A program made the translations under genes and the position numbers. Below the pieces are notes generated by a model. It saw only the letters and a program-made list of their open reading frames with translations, had not been told where the DNA came from and searched no databases. Shown here piece by piece: positions 11,520 to 29,106 of a stretch of 34,832 nucleotides of DNA; position 1 is the stretch's first letter, and each line of letters opens with the position of its first letter. This DNA comes from Caldilineaceae bacterium. Lineage in GTDB: Bacteria; Chloroflexota; Anaerolineae; Caldilineales; Caldilineaceae. Location of the stretch: assembly GCA_020433455.1 (NCBI GenBank), contig JAGRCP010000033.1, forward strand, positions 1-34,832, read 5' to 3'.

Positions 11520-11900
11520 TCAGCTTATTATGGTCGTCAGAGTATCGGCAATGTCAACCAAAATCGCCGACACCCCGCGAAAAAGTGCAGCAAAAAAAAC
11601 CAACAGACTCTGCTCGATGGGAGCAACCCGGCTAGGCCAGCGATAGTGGGCTACCGACCAGGCCAGGATGATCACGGCGTACCAAAACCGCCGTTTTGCC
11701 CGACGCGCGCTTCTGGCCTTGAGCACCAGGTCAAGGGGCGTGGCGTCCGTCTTGAGCTTGATCTCCTGGGGCTTGATGTCAACAAGCGCATCCTTGTTCC
11801 AATTCTTGAAGAGGTTTCGGATAAAGGCCCCTGCGGCAGCCGCAAGCAGCACCAGGAGAAACTGGATCAGCAGTGGCAAGTTCAGGAATGTGGCAAGCAT
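11520..11900 (-). CDS. Small two-helix membrane protein upstream of thrS
   Basis: A 126-aa protein I do not recognise. Two hydrophobic segments are clear: about residues 3-25 (FLNLPLLIQFLLVLLAAAAG) and 72-90 or a little beyond (FWYAVIILAWSVAHY), with a further amphipathic stretch near 98-120 (LLVFFAALFRGVSAILVDIA). Between the first two lies a basic cytoplasmic-type region (KARSARRAKRR). It ends 18 nt before the thrS start and has an extended -10 promoter at 11952-11960, so the two genes are probably one operon. The ATG at 11900 lacks a clear ribosome-binding site, and about 45 nt of leader are expected. Confidence 0.68.
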   Translation of the reverse strand: MLATFLNLPLLIQFLLVLLAAAAGAFIRNLFKNWNKDALVDIKPQEIKLKTDATPLDLVLKARSARRAKRRFWYAVIILAWSVAHYRWPSRVAPIEQSLLVFFAALFRGVSAILVDIADTLTTIIS

Positions 11901-11951
11901 GGGAGTCTATTCCGCGGTTATCAAAAAGGTCGCCTGGTAGACAACTCAATC

Positions 11952-11960
11952 AGTATAGCA
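11952..11960 (-). promoter_or_regulatory. Extended -10 promoter for the small membrane gene and thrS
   Basis: On the minus strand TGCTATACT combines a TGn extension with a TATACT -10. The -35 region is weak. The same nine bases form the -10 region of the tRNA-Val promoter at 14134-14142. Confidence 0.6.
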
Positions 11961-11980
11961 CAACATGACGGACTTTCCAC

Positions 11981-12009
11981 TTGCGTTTTTACTGAACTTG
12001 GATTATTTT
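11981..12009 (+). promoter_or_regulatory. Promoter of the orphan gene at 12056
   Basis: TTGCGT (11981-11986) and TATTTT (12004-12009) are 17 bp apart. The expected start of transcription, near 12016, falls inside the GAAC-N4-GTTC palindrome at 12012-12027. Confidence 0.5.
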
Positions 12010-12011
12010 AT

Positions 12012-12027
12012 TAGAACTTTTGTTCTA
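12012..12027. promoter_or_regulatory. LexA-type palindrome (putative SOS operator)
   Basis: TAGAAC-TTTT-GTTCTA is a perfect 16-bp palindrome containing GAAC-N4-GTTC, the core of the Gram-positive type LexA box. It overlaps the predicted transcription start of the gene at 12056 and lies about 60 bp from the divergent thrS-operon promoter. Identification as a LexA site is inferred from the motif and position only. Confidence 0.5.
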
Positions 12028-12055
12028 GATAGCCTCCTGGACACGCATATTCACA

Positions 12056-12454
12056 ATGGATATTTTATCAAGCTTAGACATTATCAACCCGCTGGACGGC
12101 ATTTTCGGCCGTATCCTGCACGGCCCCATGCATCGCTTTACCTTTACGGCCGACCCCGGCCGTAGCGGACTTGACGTCGAGATGATGCTGCGCCAATACG
12201 GCATCCGCGTGTGGGGGCGGGAAATGGATGACAGCCTGGACCGGGCTCTGCTCGTCAAGCGATCTCAGGCGGTCTGGGCCGAGTATCTTCTCTGCCGGGC
12301 GGGCGTTTCGCTTACCTGCCCCTTGCTGGATCCGCGCAATGAGCATTACCGGCTTCAACATGCCCGCGGAACCATGCCTGTGCCATGGACGGAAGACGGA
12401 ATCGGCGCGCATAGCTTTGTGGACCGCATAGTCGATTTGATCGACCGCTTTTGA
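12056..12454 (+). CDS. Hypothetical protein, possibly SOS-controlled
   Basis: A 132-aa soluble protein I do not recognise. It has no signal peptide or membrane segment. Visible features are an N-terminal MDILSSLDIINPLDGIFGRI, a central charged region (GIRVWGREMDDSLDRALLVKR) likely to be alpha/beta, and two Cys residues (LLCRAG, LTCPLL). A stop codon at 12026 and the lack of other starts make the ATG at 12056 the likely start; no ribosome-binding site is seen. It is the only plus-strand gene between two minus-strand units, with its own promoter and the LexA-like palindrome. Its codon use looks like that of its neighbours. Confidence 0.65.
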   Translation: MDILSSLDIINPLDGIFGRILHGPMHRFTFTADPGRSGLDVEMMLRQYGIRVWGREMDDSLDRALLVKRSQAVWAEYLLCRAGVSLTCPLLDPRNEHYRLQHARGTMPVPWTEDGIGAHSFVDRIVDLIDRF

Positions 12455-20311: not shown

Positions 20312-23300
20312 TTATTCTTCCACCACAAAAACCTCGCCCCCGCTGCGCCCCCACACTTCGGGGAAGTACATCTCCTCAGCATGAACCGGCAGGACCCGAT
20401 ACTCGCCGGGCAGGGCGGCCCGCACCTGGAAGGTGTACTGATACGTGCCCGCGGGCAGGTAGGTGGCGAATAGCGCCACCTTCTCATCCCGCATGTCGGT
20501 AGCCGTGGGAATCCAGTAGCGCCAGGGCATGGAGCTGTCGGTAACGTCCTCCATCTGCGGGCCCTGTGCGCCGGCGCTTTCCGTAGCCAGGCTGGCGTTG
20601 ACGGGTTCCGTGCCCGCGGGAAGAGGCACTTCCACCAGCAGATGATAGAGGTCCTTGGGCGCGACAATCGTGGCGGTGACGCTGATGACGTCGCCCACCG
20701 CGGCCCGGCTGATGGTTTCTCCGTCAGCCGCGGCGAAGCGGCGCGTCACGGCAATGCCCCGGTTGCGGGGCGAGACGGCCGGCGCATCTACGTAAGTGCG
20801 CAGACTCGCCGTGTAGTACATGCGCCCGCTTGCGTTGTCCCTGCTCAGGCGCAGAATGTTGGTCTCATCCCGCAGGAGGTCAGACACGGCCGCACGCAAT
20901 CGGGTGCGCGTATCCACCGTCTCCGGCGTGACCTGGCCGCCGCCCAGTTCCGCCTCGTTGAGCGAAACGTCCCATGCGTAGTCGGCCTCCAGTTCGCCGG
21001 TGGCCGCCAGCCAGTCGGTCAGCGCAATAATGCTCCAGGCGTTCTCCTGGGTGGTCGCCCAGCGGCCGGATTCCCGCGCGCTCATGAGCCAGCGCACGGC
21101 ATTGCCGAGCAGGGGCTGGTCCGGATCCAGGCGGGTAAACGCGGTCAGGACGATGGCCGTGGTGCGCAGGTCGGTGTTGAGGGTCATGTAATCCACGTCC
21201 GCCTCGTGCCAGGACGCGCCCGTGGCGCTGGTCTGGACCGCGCCGTACAGCTCATCCAGCAGCGTCTCAATGCGGGGATCGCCGTCTGCGTCATCGTTCA
21301 TGTCGGCCAGGGCCATGGCCAGATAGGCCTTGCCGTAGTAGGCCAGGCGCGCCCGGGCGTCGTAAAGCGTTGCCGCGCGGCCGGGGTCGCCCTGGCCCAT
21401 TTCCGCCAGGACGAAGTGCATGAAGGCCATCTCGTTCAGCTCCCAGTTGTTGGCCACCGCATCGGGCGCCTGGAATTGGCGCTCCAGATACCCGACGGCC
21501 CGGTCCAGCGTATCCTGGGGGACGGCGTACTCCATGCGCTCGGCTTCGGCCAATCCCCAGAGCACGTAGGCGCTCACATAGGCGGATGATTCTTCTCCCG
21601 GCCAGTAGCCCCAACCGCCGTCGGGATTCTGACGATTGACCAGCTTTTGGACGCCTACGCCCATTTGGTAGGCAAGCTGTTGCGCCAGTTCGGCATCCTC
21701 CACGCCCAGTTCGCGCAGGGCCCGCCGGGTAAAGAGATTGGGCAGGAAGCGGCTGACGGCCTGTTCATTGCACTCGTAGGGATAGTGCTCCAGATAGTCC
21801 AGCCCTTCGAGCATGCCCGCGGCCAGACTCGGTTCGATGGTGACGGACAACTCGCCGTCATCGGTGGCGCCGTCGGGTACGCGGATGGCCTCGACTCGGC
21901 CTGTGGGCGGCACTTCGCCCGCGGTTGCGACCGTTTCCGGCGTCTGATAGCGGACTACGGGCAGGGTTATGCGCACCGCATCGCTCGCAACGCTCGACGT
22001 CGCGGTGAAGGTAAAGGTCACTTCCTCCGCGTCCTTCATCACCGTCACGGGCAGATCAAAGCGCGCCTGCCCACCGGCATCCAACTCCGTGACGAACCCG
22101 GTTTCCCCTTCCGCGTCCGCGCCCTCAATCCCAATCTGCAATCTTAGCTCTGCAATCCTTTCGTCGGTCGTATTCATGACGACCGCCCCGATCTGGGCTC
22201 GGTCGCCTGCTGTGAAGAAGCGGGGCAAGGCCGGGCGAATCTGCAAATCCTGGGTTGCGACCAGTTCATGACGGCTATCGCCCACCTTGGTGTCGTCGCT
22301 CGCGCCCCGTACGACCAGAACCCACGTCGTCAGGTTTTCGGGCAGGGTGACGCTAAAGCTCGCCTGCCCCGCGTCGTCGGTGACCAACTCTGCATCCCAG
22401 TAGGCCGCATCCCGAAAATCTTCCCGCACTTCGAGCATACTGATGCCGCCGCCCCCGCCGCCCCCGCCTTTGGGGCCTTCGGCCAGCAGCCGGCTGAGCT
22501 GGTCTTCGTTGATGACCAGCAGCGCGCCCGTGCGCACCCCCAGGGGACGCCGGGCGTAGAAAACGTCCGCCAGGCTGGACTCCGTCTGGCCGCCCAGGGC
22601 AAAGATGGCCTTGTCGATCAGGGCGACGGACAGTTCGGCGTCGGCCACGGGCGCGCCCGTCACGTCGGCCACGTCAATCGTGTAGGTGATCTGCGTGCCG
22701 GGTGCGACCGTTTCTGCACCCGGGTCTACCGTGATGGTCAGCTCCTTCTCCCTTACGTCTACTGCCAGCTCCGTCATGCCGACCGCCATGGCCGGGAAGG
22801 GGTTGCTCTCATCCACGCCCTTGAGCAGGATCACGCTCACGTAAATGTTGGGGATGGCATCCGCGGTAACGGGAATTTCCAGGGTAGCGCTGTTGCTTGC
22901 CAGGGTGACGACCCGGGCGTCGATTACGCCGCCGCGCTCGATGGTTACCAGGGCCTGCACCCGACCGGCGAAGGGGCTGGGCACGAGGATTTTGGCTGTG
23001 TCGCCCGGCGCATAGGTCTGCTTGTCCGCCACCAACTCTATGCGGTTGTTATTCTCCCGGGGCCAGGCCACAAAGTCGCTGCCGCCCGCTGCGTAGAGGT
23101 AGCCTGCGCCTGCGCTGATGCGGCCTTCCGCATCCACGCCCGCGGCCGTAATCTGATACTGACCGGCTGCAGCGGGCGTAAACGAAACGGCCGCCATGCC
23201 GTCCCGCCCCGTGGTGACCGTCTCGCTGTAAACGGGCGTACGGTCCACGCTGGTCTTCCAGACGTAGACGCCGTTTTCCTGCGCGTAGACGCTGTTCCAG

Positions 23301-26299
23301 CGGAATTCGTAGATAACTACATCCAGTTCCGCACCGGGATAGGGCGCGCTGTGGGGCGCGCCCAGCGATTCCAGCGTAACCAGATCAATGGTTGCCTCTT
23401 CGCCCACAGAGACCACATAGCGCTCCGGACTGATGCCGATGGCGAATGCGCTCTGATGGACGGGAACGTTCACCTGGTTGGAGACGAATTGGTCCGTCGC
23501 GCTTTGAACGGTGACGTCAATTTGCAGGCTTTGGCTGCCCATGCCCGCGGCCAACTCTGCCGGCGCTTCGATGACGTAACGACCTTGCGCATCGGTAACG
23601 CCCGCGCCCTCCCGTATCAACTCGCCCAAGCTAAAGCCGCGATAGGGGTCGTAATCCTCCGTCGTCGGGTCGTAAGCGGCAAAGCTGTAATAGCGTCCTT
23701 GGGGGCCGTCCTCCCAGCGATAGTCGTAAGGCGAACTGAGGATGCGCCAGGTTACCGGCGCATCAGCCAGGGGCCCGCCGCTGTAATAGGCGGCATCTAC
23801 CGCCACGCGCACGGTTTCGCCCTGGATGTACTCGTCCTTTTCCGGCGTGAAGGTGATCTCGAACTCAGGCTTGCGATAGGCCGCCACCTGAAAGCCTGTG
23901 CCGGCATAGACCGGGTTGGGCGTCCCGGTCTGCACCAGGGCCTCCACGTAGTAATAGCCGGTGGTCGCCTCGTCGGCCAGATCGATAAAGCCGCTGACCG
24001 TGCCGTGCGCGTTGGGGCGTACGGTCCGCCGCTGGATTTCGTCGCCCCGATCATTGCGTACGGTGATGTCAACCCGGGTCTCCTGTGAAGGCAGACGGTA
24101 GCCGTCATCGCCCATCATGCGCAGAATGCCCTTCCAGTTTACCCTGTCCCCGGGCCGATAGACCGGACGATCGGTATAGAAGAAAGTCTGCATGGTCTCC
24201 TGGCCGTACCCGCTGGGCAGGTTGAAATCCCAGGCGGCGATGCCCTGAGACCACTCGGTGGAAGCCACGGCGAAAATTGGGTCGCCGGGCGCGCCGCTTA
24301 CGGCCAGGACCGGCTGCCAGGCGTTATCGCCCTCTACCTGGGCCTGGACCGTCACTAGCCCCGCAGCGTCGGTAACGCCCTGGGCCAGGACGTCCGCGTC
24401 GCTGCGGAATTCTACGGGCGTTCGCCCCGATAGCGGGGGCGTACTGCGTAGCCATGCCAGGACGCCCGCGTCGCTGCGGAATTCTACGGGCGCCTGGGCG
24501 ACGGGCTCGCCCGTGGCCAGATCAGTAAGCCAGGCCAGGCTCGCGCCCGTCTGGCTCTGCTTGATGACCAGGTTGTAATTGCTCAGGATGATGACGTAAG
24601 TATCATGCAGCGTGGCGGGCGCGCCGCCGGCGGTATCGGCTGCCGGGACAGGGCGCGCAATCTGCAGGGCGTAGATGCCCGGCGGCAGATCGCTGCCCGC
24701 GTCGTCCTGCAATTTGATTAGCTCCGTGCCCAGTTCGTTGGCGGCAACCTGGGACGGGTAGCTCCGCTCCCAAATGCGATTGGCTGCCTCATCGGGCACG
24801 GCGTAGTTGTCGAAAGCCTGCCACTGATCCGGTCCGGCCAGCTTGTACAGCTCCGCCGGCGGCAGGCGATAGAGGGCCGCGTCCACCGTTGCCACGTTGC
24901 GATAATAGGCCGCCACGACCGTTGTCGTAAACGCGGTGAAGTGGGTGAAGTTTTCCAGATCGGTCTGGACCGCGGGCGGGTAATCGCCCGTGGTGAAAGA
25001 GAAGCTGAACTCTTTGCCCAGGGTGTTGCCGTAGGCATCGCCCGCCGCGCCGTCTACGGTAACGGTGTAGGCGGTTTGGGGCTCCTTGGGCCAGATTAGC
25101 TGGACATTGGGCGTAGGATAATCCGAGTAGTAGCTGATGACCGTGGTCGTGGTGGGGACCGGCGTCACGTCAACCGCGTCCAGTGCCAGGGTGTAGCTCA
25201 AGGGTGCGGTGAAATAGACGGCGACCGGCGCATCCAGCGGCACGCCTTCATTGCCGTCCAGCGATTCGGTGTAGTCTATGGCCGGCAGCGAGAACGTTCT
25301 GAAATGCACGGCAACCGGCTCGCCCAGATTGCCCGATCCCCTGGCCGATTGGACATCCGCCATCAGCCCGATTACGTATTCCTGGTCGAAGCCCAGCGAC
25401 GCATCGGGCGTGAACGTGACGGTCGTCGAATCATCGTTCCAGGTAAAGCCGCCGGCCACGGCCTGGCCCGGCGCGTCGCCCTCCGTGACCGGCCGCAGGC
25501 TAAACCCCGCTTCCACGGAGGCCTGATCCATAGGTTTGGTGAAGGTGATGGTCACGGGGGCGTCGGGCGGATTGGGGCCTCCCAGCGCCTGGGGCGATAC
25601 GTTGCTGACCGCGGGCGCGCCCGTAGTGAAGCTTGTTTGGTACGGCTGCGCTAGGGGGATGCCGTCAAAGGTGTTGACGTTGTCAACCGTCACCTGATAA
25701 TCGCTGCCCGCATCAAAACCGCTTTCGGGCGTAAAGACGTAGGCGCTGGTCGTGACCCATTCGCCCTGGCCGGCTGCATCCGGCTCCAGCTTGAAGGGAC
25801 GTGGCGTCTCTTCGCTGCCCAGCGCGACGACCGGCTGATTGAAGAGCACGGTGAGATTCTCATCGGTGGCGGTGACGTTGAGGACCTGGAGAGGCACGGG
25901 CGTATTGAGGATGAGGACTACGGGGGCATTGACCTCCGTTCCGTCTGCGCTCAAGGCCGTACGCAGCGTAAATTCGTAGCGCCGGCCCGCCTCCGGCTCG
26001 GCGGCAGGTGTAAAGATGACTGCCGCGTCTTCTACGCGCGTTGCGCCGGCTAATGCGGGCGTCACGGTCAGGTAGTCGGCGCTGGCCGGGTCCATGGCCT
26101 GGTCAAAGGTGATGCGCACCGGCTCGCCCATCCACGGAGCGTCGGCGGCAGGCTCCGTGCTGACGACTACGGGCGGCGTCGCCTGGCGCGGCGGGACCGC
26201 GGCCCGAACGCTGAGCGTTTTCACGGCCGTCCCGCCCAGAAGCAAGGCAATAACCAAGCTCAGAACGGCATAACTTGCGGTGCGGAATAAGCGTTGCAT
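20312..26299 (-). CDS. Alpha-2-macroglobulin family protein
   Basis: A 1995-aa exported protein resembling YfhM/ECAM, thought to trap foreign proteases through a bait region and a thioester. A signal peptide is present (about 1-37, ASYAVLSLVIALLLGG), without a lipobox. Four or more Ig-like (Big_5-type) repeats fill about 45-440 (PVRITFDQAMDPAS, PVTITFTKPMDQAS). The macroglobulin domains begin near 700 (FFYTDRPVYRPGDRVNWKG, MG2). A Gly7 run lies near 1276, followed by VREDFRDAAYWDAEL. The thioester motif CNEQ starts at Cys1510 (21772-21761), in the alpha-alpha toroid domain. The end (YLPAGTYQYTFQVRA, AEEMYFPEVWGRSGG) is the bacterial MG10 domain. AGG precedes the ATG at 26299. It lies 125 nt downstream of pbpC. 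Confidence 0.95.
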   Translation of the reverse strand: MQRLFRTASYAVLSLVIALLLGGTAVKTLSVRAAVPPRQATPPVVVSTEPAADAPWMGEPVRITFDQAMDPASADYLTVTPALAGATRVEDAAVIFTPAAEPEAGRRYEFTLRTALSADGTEVNAPVVLILNTPVPLQVLNVTATDENLTVLFNQPVVALGSEETPRPFKLEPDAAGQGEWVTTSAYVFTPESGFDAGSDYQVTVDNVNTFDGIPLAQPYQTSFTTGAPAVSNVSPQALGGPNPPDAPVTITFTKPMDQASVEAGFSLRPVTEGDAPGQAVAGGFTWNDDSTTVTFTPDASLGFDQEYVIGLMADVQSARGSGNLGEPVAVHFRTFSLPAIDYTESLDGNEGVPLDAPVAVYFTAPLSYTLALDAVDVTPVPTTTTVISYYSDYPTPNVQLIWPKEPQTAYTVTVDGAAGDAYGNTLGKEFSFSFTTGDYPPAVQTDLENFTHFTAFTTTVVAAYYRNVATVDAALYRLPPAELYKLAGPDQWQAFDNYAVPDEAANRIWERSYPSQVAANELGTELIKLQDDAGSDLPPGIYALQIARPVPAADTAGGAPATLHDTYVIILSNYNLVIKQSQTGASLAWLTDLATGEPVAQAPVEFRSDAGVLAWLRSTPPLSGRTPVEFRSDADVLAQGVTDAAGLVTVQAQVEGDNAWQPVLAVSGAPGDPIFAVASTEWSQGIAAWDFNLPSGYGQETMQTFFYTDRPVYRPGDRVNWKGILRMMGDDGYRLPSQETRVDITVRNDRGDEIQRRTVRPNAHGTVSGFIDLADEATTGYYYVEALVQTGTPNPVYAGTGFQVAAYRKPEFEITFTPEKDEYIQGETVRVAVDAAYYSGGPLADAPVTWRILSSPYDYRWEDGPQGRYYSFAAYDPTTEDYDPYRGFSLGELIREGAGVTDAQGRYVIEAPAELAAGMGSQSLQIDVTVQSATDQFVSNQVNVPVHQSAFAIGISPERYVVSVGEEATIDLVTLESLGAPHSAPYPGAELDVVIYEFRWNSVYAQENGVYVWKTSVDRTPVYSETVTTGRDGMAAVSFTPAAAGQYQITAAGVDAEGRISAGAGYLYAAGGSDFVAWPRENNNRIELVADKQTYAPGDTAKILVPSPFAGRVQALVTIERGGVIDARVVTLASNSATLEIPVTADAIPNIYVSVILLKGVDESNPFPAMAVGMTELAVDVREKELTITVDPGAETVAPGTQITYTIDVADVTGAPVADAELSVALIDKAIFALGGQTESSLADVFYARRPLGVRTGALLVINEDQLSRLLAEGPKGGGGGGGGISMLEVREDFRDAAYWDAELVTDDAGQASFSVTLPENLTTWVLVVRGASDDTKVGDSRHELVATQDLQIRPALPRFFTAGDRAQIGAVVMNTTDERIAELRLQIGIEGADAEGETGFVTELDAGGQARFDLPVTVMKDAEEVTFTFTATSSVASDAVRITLPVVRYQTPETVATAGEVPPTGRVEAIRVPDGATDDGELSVTIEPSLAAGMLEGLDYLEHYPYECNEQAVSRFLPNLFTRRALRELGVEDAELAQQLAYQMGVGVQKLVNRQNPDGGWGYWPGEESSAYVSAYVLWGLAEAERMEYAVPQDTLDRAVGYLERQFQAPDAVANNWELNEMAFMHFVLAEMGQGDPGRAATLYDARARLAYYGKAYLAMALADMNDDADGDPRIETLLDELYGAVQTSATGASWHEADVDYMTLNTDLRTTAIVLTAFTRLDPDQPLLGNAVRWLMSARESGRWATTQENAWSIIALTDWLAATGELEADYAWDVSLNEAELGGGQVTPETVDTRTRLRAAVSDLLRDETNILRLSRDNASGRMYYTASLRTYVDAPAVSPRNRGIAVTRRFAAADGETISRAAVGDVISVTATIVAPKDLYHLLVEVPLPAGTEPVNASLATESAGAQGPQMEDVTDSSMPWRYWIPTATDMRDEKVALFATYLPAGTYQYTFQVRAALPGEYRVLPVHAEEMYFPEVWGRSGGEVFVVEE
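24384..24492. repeat. In-frame duplication inside the macroglobulin gene
   Basis: Two 37-bp copies (24384-24420 and 24456-24492) differ at one base and are 72 bp apart, exactly 24 codons. The protein reads PVEFRSDAGVLA and PVEFRSDADVLA (about residues 603-639). Between them lies WLRSTPPLSGRT, coded by a stretch containing the palindrome CGCCCC/GGGGGCG at about 24424-24441. Confidence 0.88.
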
Positions 26300-26424
26300 A
26301 ATGACCTGTCTTTCGCGATCAAATTGTTGACATAAAGTTTGGATGGGCTGATTGCGTTCGCTGCCTGCTTGCTTCATCTGCCAGAATGGCAACTCAACCT
26401 AAATTTGTAAATTACTTGCGTGAA

Positions 26425-29106
26425 TTACTGTTGTGACGCCGCGAATTCTTCTACCGGCCGTACGGTGATGGCGGCTGTTGGGGAGCGGACGGTTGCGCCG
26501 TCGGCCTTGGTTTCGCCTTCCAGGCGGAAGCGATGTTCGCCGGGCGTCAGCGTCCACCACGCCTGAATTGTAGCCGTATCCTGCATCTCTATCAACGTTG
26601 CGCCATCGACCACCAGGCGCAATGCAGCCCATGGGCCGCTATTCGCATAGCCCTGCACGGCGATGCGCTGGCTCGCTGCGGGCAGGCCGGGATGGATTTG
26701 ATAGACGGCCATGTCGTCAGGTCCCGTGAGGACAAGCGGCTCTGTCGGGTTTGGCTCTTCGCCTAGGGATGACGTCGCGTCCCCCGGGATAGATGCGGTC
26801 GCATCCAACACGGGCAAATTATGGCTGATCATCCAATCGTGATAGGCAGGCGGCAGCACCCAGACGACCTGAGTGCGGGTCTCTTCCGCGGGCGTATCCG
26901 GTGCGGCAGGAAGCCCCGTGCGCCGATCGAGCGTAACCCGGCGAAATTGGGTGTCGGGCAGCGCGGGTTCGGTTCCGGCCCGGAAGCGTTCTTGACGCAA
27001 TTGCGTACACGCATCACCGGGGAGCATGCCGCTGGGCCCGCAAATTTCCACCTCTACAATGTCGGCCGGTCGGGCAAAGGGCGGGGGATCGTCAGCGTGC
27101 GCGGCCAGCATCATATCGTGCCAGACGGGGCCGGCCCCGTCCAGTCCGCTCACGCCGACCATGGGCGCGTTGTCGGCGTTGCCCACCCAGACGCCGATAA
27201 CGCGCTCGGTGGAGTAGCCTACGGTCCAGTTGTCCCGCCAGTCGGTGGTCGTACCCGTCTTCACCGCGGCGGGAAAAGGCAATTCCAGCACTGAGCCCTG
27301 GCCGAATGCGGGCCGACGCGCGGCGGGATCAGACAGAATGTCGGTGATCAAATAAGCCGTCTCGGCATCAATCACCCGCTCGCCGCCCAATCTCCCCATC
27401 TCCCAATCTCCTAATCCCCCGCCCTCGACTGCCAGCACGCTCCGCGGCTCCAGCCTTATCCCATCATCCAGCGTACCGTACGCGGCGGTCAATTCCAGCA
27501 GGCGGACCTCGCCGCCGCCCAGGGTAAGGGCCAGCCCGTAGCGCTCGGTGAAGGTGGTGATGCCCGCGCGCGCGGCCAGGGTACGCAGCGTATCGACGCC
27601 GACGCGTTCCAGGGTTTTGACCGCGGGAATGTTGTAGCTGGAAGCCAGCGCGGTGCGCACGCTCACCGGGCCGTGGAAGGCGCGGTCGTAGTTGAGAGGC
27701 GTGTAGGCCTCCGGTTCGCCATGGGCATTGGGTGCATAGAAGGTGGCGGGCAAATCCGCGATGATGGACGCCGGCGTTAGCGGAGCCACGCCCGCCTGCG
27801 CGCTCCACGCGGGGTCCAGGGCCGCGGCGTAGGTGAAAGGCTTGATGGCGCTGCCGGGCTGGCGCAGGCTCAACGCGGCGTTGACGTTACCCTGAATAGC
27901 AGCGTCAAAATAGTCGGGGCTGCCCACCATGGCCAGAATGTCGCCGGTGCGGCTGTCCAGCGTCACGGCCGCGGCGTTGTCAATGCGCCGGTTGGGGTTG
28001 ACGCCGTCGGCGCAAACTGCGGGCGGCTCGCAATTGAGTTGGGCCAGCCGCCGGCTGACGGCCTCTTCGGCCGCGCGTTGCAGGTCCAGGTCCAGCGTGG
28101 TGGTAACGGTGAGGCCGCCCCGGCGGATGGCGTCCGTTCCCAACATTTGGGTGAGCTGGTCCTGGACGTACATGACAAAATGGGGTGCGCGAATGGGGAA
28201 AAGGCGCGCCCGATAGCGCAGCGCTTCTCGTTCAACCAGGACTGCTTCCTCTGCGTCCAGATAGCCCTTCTCCTGCATGAGGCGAATGACAGTCTGCCGG
28301 CGCGCCATGGCTGCTTCGGGATCGGCGAGGGGATTATAGACGCCGGGATTCTGGAGCAGCCCGGCCAGGAGCGCGCACTCGCCGCGGCTGAGCTGGGCCG
28401 CGGGCTTGGCGAAAAAGGTCTGGGCCGCGGCTTCGAGGCCAAAGGCGAAGCTGCCGTAGTAGCTCTGGTTCAGATAGAGGACCAGCAACTCATCCTTCGT
28501 GTAGCGAGTCTCGAGCCGCCAGGCCAGCCAGGCTTCGCGCAGCTTGCGCGTGTAGGATGCCTCCAGCCGCTCGTCGGGCGTGAGGAGGAGCATGCGTGCC
28601 AGCTGCTGGGTGATGGTGCTCGCGCCGCTGACGATGCCGCCGCTGCGCCGGTTCTGAATGGCGGCACGCAGAATGGCGACGGGATCGATGCCCGGGTGGA
28701 GGTAGAAGCGGCTGTCCTCGGTAGCGATGGTGGCCTGGCGACAGGCCAGGGGAATAGCGTCCAGCGTCAGGTCGATCTGCTTGCCCATATCCGGGTCGAT
28801 GACCTCGTAGAGGAGGCGGCCGTTGCGGTCCAGAATGCGGGTAGACGGCCGGACCAGGCGCTGCTCCAGCGCGCTGACGGGCGGCAGATCGGCCAGGAGC
28901 CAGGCGTAGACGATCCCAGCGCTGAGCGAGAAGAGCCCGCCCAGCACGAGGAGCGTTATGTAGATGGGTTTGGGGCAAAACCGGCGGCGCGTCATGCTAT
29001 CGGAACGTGTGTAGCCGGGGCTATGTTCCGGTTGAAACGCGGCGGCTTTGCGCAGGGCAAAATTGTAGGCGAATGGTCTGGACGAGGTCCGGGTTTGCTT
29101 ATTCAT
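26425..29106 (-). CDS. pbpC: Penicillin-binding protein 1C
   Basis: A bifunctional class A PBP that polymerises glycan strands and can bind penicillin as a transpeptidase. It has 893 aa. A membrane helix lies at about 48-70. The GT51 domain has the catalytic Glu130 ([15 protein letters not shown]), [14 protein letters not shown] (161-174) and [16 protein letters not shown] (213-228). The transpeptidase domain has SAIK (Ser419-Lys422), SYN (490-492) and KTGTT (616-620). A BiPBP_C domain closes the protein (about 800-893, [26 protein letters not shown]). AGGAGA lies 12 nt before the ATG at 29106; an ATG at 28995 is possible but lacks such a site. It precedes the macroglobulin gene, the usual gene pair. 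An odd Gly-rich insertion is at about 562-575. Confidence 0.96.
27384..27420. repeat. Pyrimidine-rich low-complexity insertion in pbpC
   Basis: Repeats of the form CCCAATCTCC and CCCATCTCC make a 37-bp stretch, unlike the surrounding GC-rich code. It encodes [15 protein letters not shown] in frame (about residues 562-576), between the conserved SVLAVE and [11 protein letters not shown] blocks of the transpeptidase domain. Confidence 0.75.

Follow-up and report, generated by a model that had tools for sequence, protein, structure and literature searches.

A predicted LexA-controlled orphan gene of Anaerolineae and its possible link to an FtsK-like DNA motor

An orphan gene of a Caldilineaceae genome, encoding a soluble protein of 132 amino acids, is predicted with high confidence to be under LexA control. 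The gene (positions 12056–12454, + strand) lies in the window, meaning the whole stretch of 34,832 nucleotides analysed here, which is part of contig C97 of a 5.25 Mb genome in 172 contigs. It is preceded by a palindromic LexA-type operator that is conserved upstream of its homologues, it faces a divergent gene for a small membrane protein, and its relatives on viral contigs are mostly neighbours of FtsK-type ATPases.

Results

The palindrome and its conservation

The palindrome TAGAACTTTTGTTCTA occupies positions 12012–12027, with its core GAACTTTTGTTC at 12014–12025, inside a divergent promoter region (11901–12055) shared by the two genes, and it ends 28 nt before the start of the 132-aa reading frame. 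This arrangement, a GAAC-N4-GTTC palindrome ahead of a 132-aa gene, had been described in an earlier note and was verified in the sequence. The window contains no other exact GAACN4GTTC. Taken alone the match is not significant, because 0.45 such matches are expected per window by chance (at least one was present in 36 of 100 shuffles) and the genome total of 34 places equals the 34 obtained with a reversed-pattern control; the genome-wide count was therefore discarded as evidence. Judged by sequence comparison, the significance of the palindrome comes from its position and its conservation.

An exact GAACN4GTTC was found within 300 nt upstream of 44 of the 72 orphan homologues in the class, versus 4 of 642 equal-size control windows elsewhere in the same loci (Fisher p ~3e-46, a value that overstates the independence of genes that are related). 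Allowing one mismatch raises the number to 55 of 72; 28 homologues have no exact box and 17 have none even with one mismatch. The commonest form of the box among the homologues is AGAAC-A-W-N-Y-GTTCT.

Two placements of the box relative to the -10 are also enriched. Among 43 of the 44 boxes (one was dropped because of its short flank), 14 had a -10 hexamer on the orphan strand at offset -7, so that it ends one base short of the box, and 7 had one at +14, starting two bases beyond it; shuffling the upstream flank alone gave an expectation of 0.25 per offset. In the relatives, the box thus lies either directly after the -10 of the orphan gene or inside the -35/-10 spacer. A further -10-like signal at +12 on the strand of the membrane gene (8 of 43) was attributed to the palindrome itself and disregarded. 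In the window itself, a weak promoter-like pair was recognised by eye directly before the operator (11981–12009, + strand), with TTGCGT at 11981–11986 and TATTTT at 12004–12009 separated by 17 nt; a consensus promoter scan of the window did not list this pair. The proposal that the palindrome covers the predicted transcription start is plausible; the promoter match in the window is weak, and the geometry in the relatives is clear.

Elsewhere in the window, two reading frames on the - strand recognised by eye, a 2026-aa alpha-2-macroglobulin-like one (20312–26392) and a penicillin-binding-protein-1C-like one (26425–29106), lie side by side, a pairing known in other bacteria.

The LexA regulon of the genome

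The genome has one LexA match, whose gene (L005:1486–2163) encodes both the DNA-binding HTH domain (PF01726) and the S24 peptidase domain (PF00717); the Ala-Gly bond and the Ser/Lys context can be recognised from its sequence. Its promoter contains three boxes of the GAACN4GTTC type with one mismatch each, GAACAAACGTGC, GCACAGATGTTC and AAACAAACGTTC. A series of three or two boxes at similar spacing was present in 20 of the 25 related lexA promoters analysed (30 loci were fetched, and five were dropped where the pattern missed the HTH). Within the family, the lexA promoters (L005:1342–1418; L106–L133) show an imperfect-box series, GAACAAACGTGC, GCACAAATGTTC and AAACAAACGTTC, at near-constant spacing, while in one genus (G001–G004) the lexA promoters are without the series and the orphan gene is absent too.

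The recA gene is split at contig ends. Of its two N-terminal pieces, that on contig C139 is preceded by two one-mismatch boxes and that on C137 by no box, exact or with one mismatch; no exact box was found at lexA or at either recA piece. The earlier note had held that a different motif at lexA and recA would speak against a LexA site; instead, lexA and one of the recA pieces carry the same motif with one mismatch. As a separate observation, two different recA 5' ends are seen, both cut at contig starts, within the first 300 bases (L006 on C137 and L007 on C139), which could mean that the genome has one damage-inducible and one constitutive recA, or that strains are mixed (contamination 3.9%).

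Inspection of the other 33 exact palindrome places (32 loci) revealed exact boxes upstream of uvrA, uvrB, a gene for a Pol III alpha subunit, a radical-SAM/HhH gene and two genes for FtsK-like ATPases; one of these two has a pair of boxes. In the radical-SAM/HhH gene (L153:1526–2698) the exact box stands 14 nt before the start, making it a further SOS candidate. Many of the other places, inside reading frames or before unrelated genes such as those for a solute-binding protein and an acetyltransferase, may be due to chance.

This regulon resembles the GAAC-N4-GTTC LexA/SOS system, known as the Gram-positive type, in its core operator, in a LexA with an S24 peptidase and in its uvrA, uvrB, lexA and recA targets. 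It differs in the series of one-mismatch boxes at the lexA and recA promoters, and in that a protein family without a match in the libraries searched appears among the controlled genes. With LexA encoded, boxes at lexA, one recA piece, uvrA and uvrB, and conservation upstream of the homologues, reading the palindrome as a LexA site is well founded, and the suggestion that the orphan is an unrecognised DNA-damage response factor gains support from the same conserved box and regulon. In the open-licence literature searched, we found no report of LexA in Anaerolineae or of an FtsK-like SOS motor in Chloroflexi.

The orphan family and its predicted fold

The orphan was described as a gene of unknown function, in agreement with our searches: no match was obtained in Pfam, NCBIfam, PHROGs or PADLOC (the last tried with four members). 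Scattered Pfam matches of single family members (best E 0.006) were treated as chance, and a profile search of solved structures gave nothing useful. Homologues were found in 18 of the 46 genomes of its own family by single-sequence search and in 19 by profile, in 58 of 396 genomes of the class, and in 3 of 400 genomes drawn from the phylum, all three from the same class, so that by this thin phylum draw the family looks class-restricted.

The AlphaFold2 model of the orphan, built with 60 homologues, has a mean pLDDT of 81.5 and a core at about 90 or above. It predicts with high confidence a helix (residues 4–21), a strand (25–31), a helix (38–47), two strands (52–57 and 62–68) and a helix (69–81); beyond these come a looser tail and, at the C-terminus, a further helix. 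Residues 25–81 would form a beta-alpha-beta-beta-alpha core to which N- and C-terminal helices are added. With Foldseek, the best PDB match to the model had an E of 0.1. In VIA-align, the AcuB ACT domain reached a Z of 8.1 (66 residues, rmsd 2.1) and YdjB one of 7.5. The modelled core resembles that of ACT/ferredoxin-like domains such as these two and the aspartokinase regulatory domain, but the identity to the orphan in the top rows is 9–20%, the best Z is at the level that the tool reports for common arrangements, and the orphan has an extra N-terminal helix and a conserved D-x-R-N / P-G-x-x-P tail. The predicted core is a ferredoxin/ACT-like arrangement, so widespread that it points to no particular function.

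The divergent membrane-hairpin gene

Across the operator, on the - strand (11520–11900), a reading frame encodes a 126-aa protein that is predicted to form a membrane hairpin. Its AlphaFold2 model shows helices around a loop with a conserved T-x-x-T-P motif (mean pLDDT 90). Scattered Pfam matches to single members (best E 0.0008) were put down to chance. With an iterated profile, a gene for this small membrane protein was found divergent across the box in 54 of the 72 loci and on the orphan's own strand in none of them; of the 18 loci without it, five have less than 300 nt of upstream sequence.

Among the 396 genomes of the class, the orphan occurs in 58, the membrane protein in 53 and both in 47. 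The membrane hairpin occurs without the orphan gene in six genomes, two of them with a strong match; in the stretches fetched, neither a convincing partner of the orphan family nor an exact box was seen. A correlation between the distance matrices of the two proteins (r = 0.51; the largest of 2000 permutations reached 0.22; 48 pairs) was left out of the argument, since common descent by itself produces such a value.

The promoter scan placed a promoter-like TGGAAA-16-TATACT with an extended -10 ahead of the membrane gene (11952–11979, - strand). Since this site does not overlap the operator, the membrane gene may be expressed without LexA control. On the same strand, thrS starts 18 nt beyond the hairpin gene (window 11900 down to 7051), with IF-3-like and L20-like reading frames, recognised by eye, farther down; the divergent promoter may feed the thrS cluster as well. 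In another genome (G045, locus L048), the hairpin gene is absent and the position directly across the box is taken by thrS.

FtsK-like motors in hosts and on viral contigs

The host FtsK-like ATPase has 383 aa, with alpha and RecA-like domains and no gamma domain by Pfam. An exact LexA box was found within 300 nt of its gene in 20 of 30 loci, compared with 10 of 188 control windows, and the genome studied here has two such motors, both with an exact box. At 29 of the 30 loci there is a gene for a protein with two transmembrane segments (2-TM), whose proline-rich tail ends near a conserved RRFKVVGE. This 2-TM gene, for which no name was found, comes after the SOS-boxed FtsK-like gene at nearly every locus (L212–L241; L247:1075–1494).

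The motor gene stands beside the orphan in just two of the host loci examined: in G032, the orphan, the hairpin and the FtsK-like gene fall within 3 kb, and in G169 the orphan and the FtsK-like reading frame overlap. Strong FtsK-like matches (E <= 1e-50) were counted, from a table scoring the top four candidates per genome, in 46 of 58 orphan genomes versus about 169 of 338 others, or about 215 of 396 overall. By these counts, more genomes have the motor than have the orphan, which is optional if it is a part of the motor.

The relevant part of a study of E. coli (PMC4080785) places ftsK under an SOS (dinH) promoter, and the Anaerolineae genes resemble this case in having an FtsK-type DNA motor gene behind an SOS promoter. 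They differ in that the motor is an ATPase of 335–383 aa without the gamma domain (Pfam), in its separate 2-TM partner, and in the presence of the orphan family next to the phage versions.

The orphan family is also encoded on 13 contigs of a viral contig collection. Terminase matches on all three contigs tried confirm a viral origin, and two contigs (L202 and L203) are identical in sequence over the orphan region. A search of 50,697 phage and 72,556 plasmid records with one orphan member gave no match. Neither an exact box near the orphan homologue nor a hairpin gene was found on any of the 13 contigs.

On nine of the 13, the host FtsK-like profile identified an FtsK-type ATPase in the same gene run as the orphan homologue, and in several of these neighbours the stop and start overlap. 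Pfam added one more ATPase, in L205; L202 ends inside what is the apparent end of the ATPase in L203; L211 has a P-loop reading frame at the ATPase position, without a Pfam match; and in L210 no FtsK-type ATPase was seen beside the orphan homologue. PF01580 was present in seven of the eight phage ATPases tried, and small transmembrane reading frames lie alongside in L199, L203, L204, L206, L207, L208 and L209. The orphan-neighbour ATPase matched the FtsK/SpoIIIE-like phage proteins phrog_1358 and phrog_3551 in four of five viral contigs tried, but its operon partners, the orphan family and the 2-TM protein, had no PHROG match among those tried. The portion of a hot-spring virome paper that deals with such genes (PMC8597652) describes FtsK/SpoIIIE genes in phages, among them one attributed to Chloroflexus, and a higher level of FtsK in communities induced with mitomycin; that portion makes no mention of an orphan-type partner.

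Discussion

Taking these results together, we lean, by a small degree, towards a combined explanation in which the LexA-controlled orphan serves as an accessory between the membrane hairpin and an FtsK-like DNA translocase. Mechanistically, LexA would bind the palindrome and repress the orphan gene, a step strongly supported by the sequence comparisons. The block would be direct, because in the relatives the box overlies the region just after the -10 or the -35/-10 spacer. Upon DNA damage, RecA would trigger the cleavage of LexA and the soluble orphan would be made. It would be co-produced with UvrA, UvrB, the polymerase and the FtsK-like motor with its 2-TM partner, a joint induction that we infer because boxes are shared among the orphan, uvrA, uvrB, polymerase and FtsK-like genes. 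At the membrane, the cytosolic orphan would meet the loop of the hairpin and act as a docking or accessory subunit of the gamma-less translocase; we regard this role with the motor as evenly balanced. Counting against the combined explanation are the presence of motor and orphan side by side in just two host loci, the frequency of the motor in genomes that have no orphan, the hairpin genes in six genomes lacking the orphan, the phage copies with neither box nor hairpin, the 28 homologues that have no exact box, and a fold too general to indicate a role. More speculatively, and by analogy with the SOS-induced FtsK of E. coli, the machine might act at the membrane or septum when chromosomes are damaged, where it would move DNA or clear it.

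Four other readings were weighed against this one. The orphan could be an SOS-induced checkpoint protein of cell division or the envelope, like SulA, YneA or SidA, that works with the hairpin and involves no FtsK-like motor. In several known SOS division inhibitors, control by LexA goes together with a small partner in the membrane, a pattern that the divergent pairing in 54 of 72 loci reproduces. Against this reading, the orphan has no similarity to the known inhibitors in Pfam or NCBIfam, although small inhibitors diverge fast, and the phage copies adjoin FtsK-type ATPases; overall we consider a division checkpoint unlikely.

Rather doubtful as well is the idea of a domesticated phage gene for phage conflict (defence or exclusion), switched on at prophage induction. 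SOS induction coincides with prophage induction, and the 13 viral contigs, with their terminase genes on the three tried, would fit this idea. However, four members are without a PADLOC match, the one member searched against phage and plasmid records found none, and the spread of the family over many genera of a single class, in which promoter and partner are both conserved, suggests a core SOS function.

A toxin-antitoxin module in which the membrane protein is the toxin is improbable: a small hydrophobic protein does lie beside a soluble one under predicted SOS control, but the pair is divergent and not an operon, the SOS box is on the promoter of the soluble member, and the phage copies keep that member without the hairpin. 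Finally, a chance palindrome at a gene that LexA does not control, compatible with the expectation per window and the genome total, is hardly credible given that the box recurs at this position in 44 of 72 homologues, versus 4 of 642 windows, and given the promoter geometry.

Returning to the accessory role of the orphan with an FtsK-like translocase, a wider and more tentative picture, to which we give somewhat less than an even chance, is that Anaerolineae possess an undescribed, multi-part, SOS-inducible and membrane-tethered DNA pump made of a short FtsK-like motor, a 2-TM partner, the orphan adaptor and the hairpin, of which phages would carry a compact one-operon version with motor, adaptor and 2-TM protein.

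With the predicted LexA control, a hypothetical protein would become a conserved member of the DNA-damage response in a large and little-studied bacterial class, and its family would be connected with a DNA motor that phages have too. If the wider picture is true, it would describe an FtsK-type machine built from separate small parts and switched on solely after damage, and it would provide concrete proteins with which to ask how Chloroflexota handle broken chromosomes.
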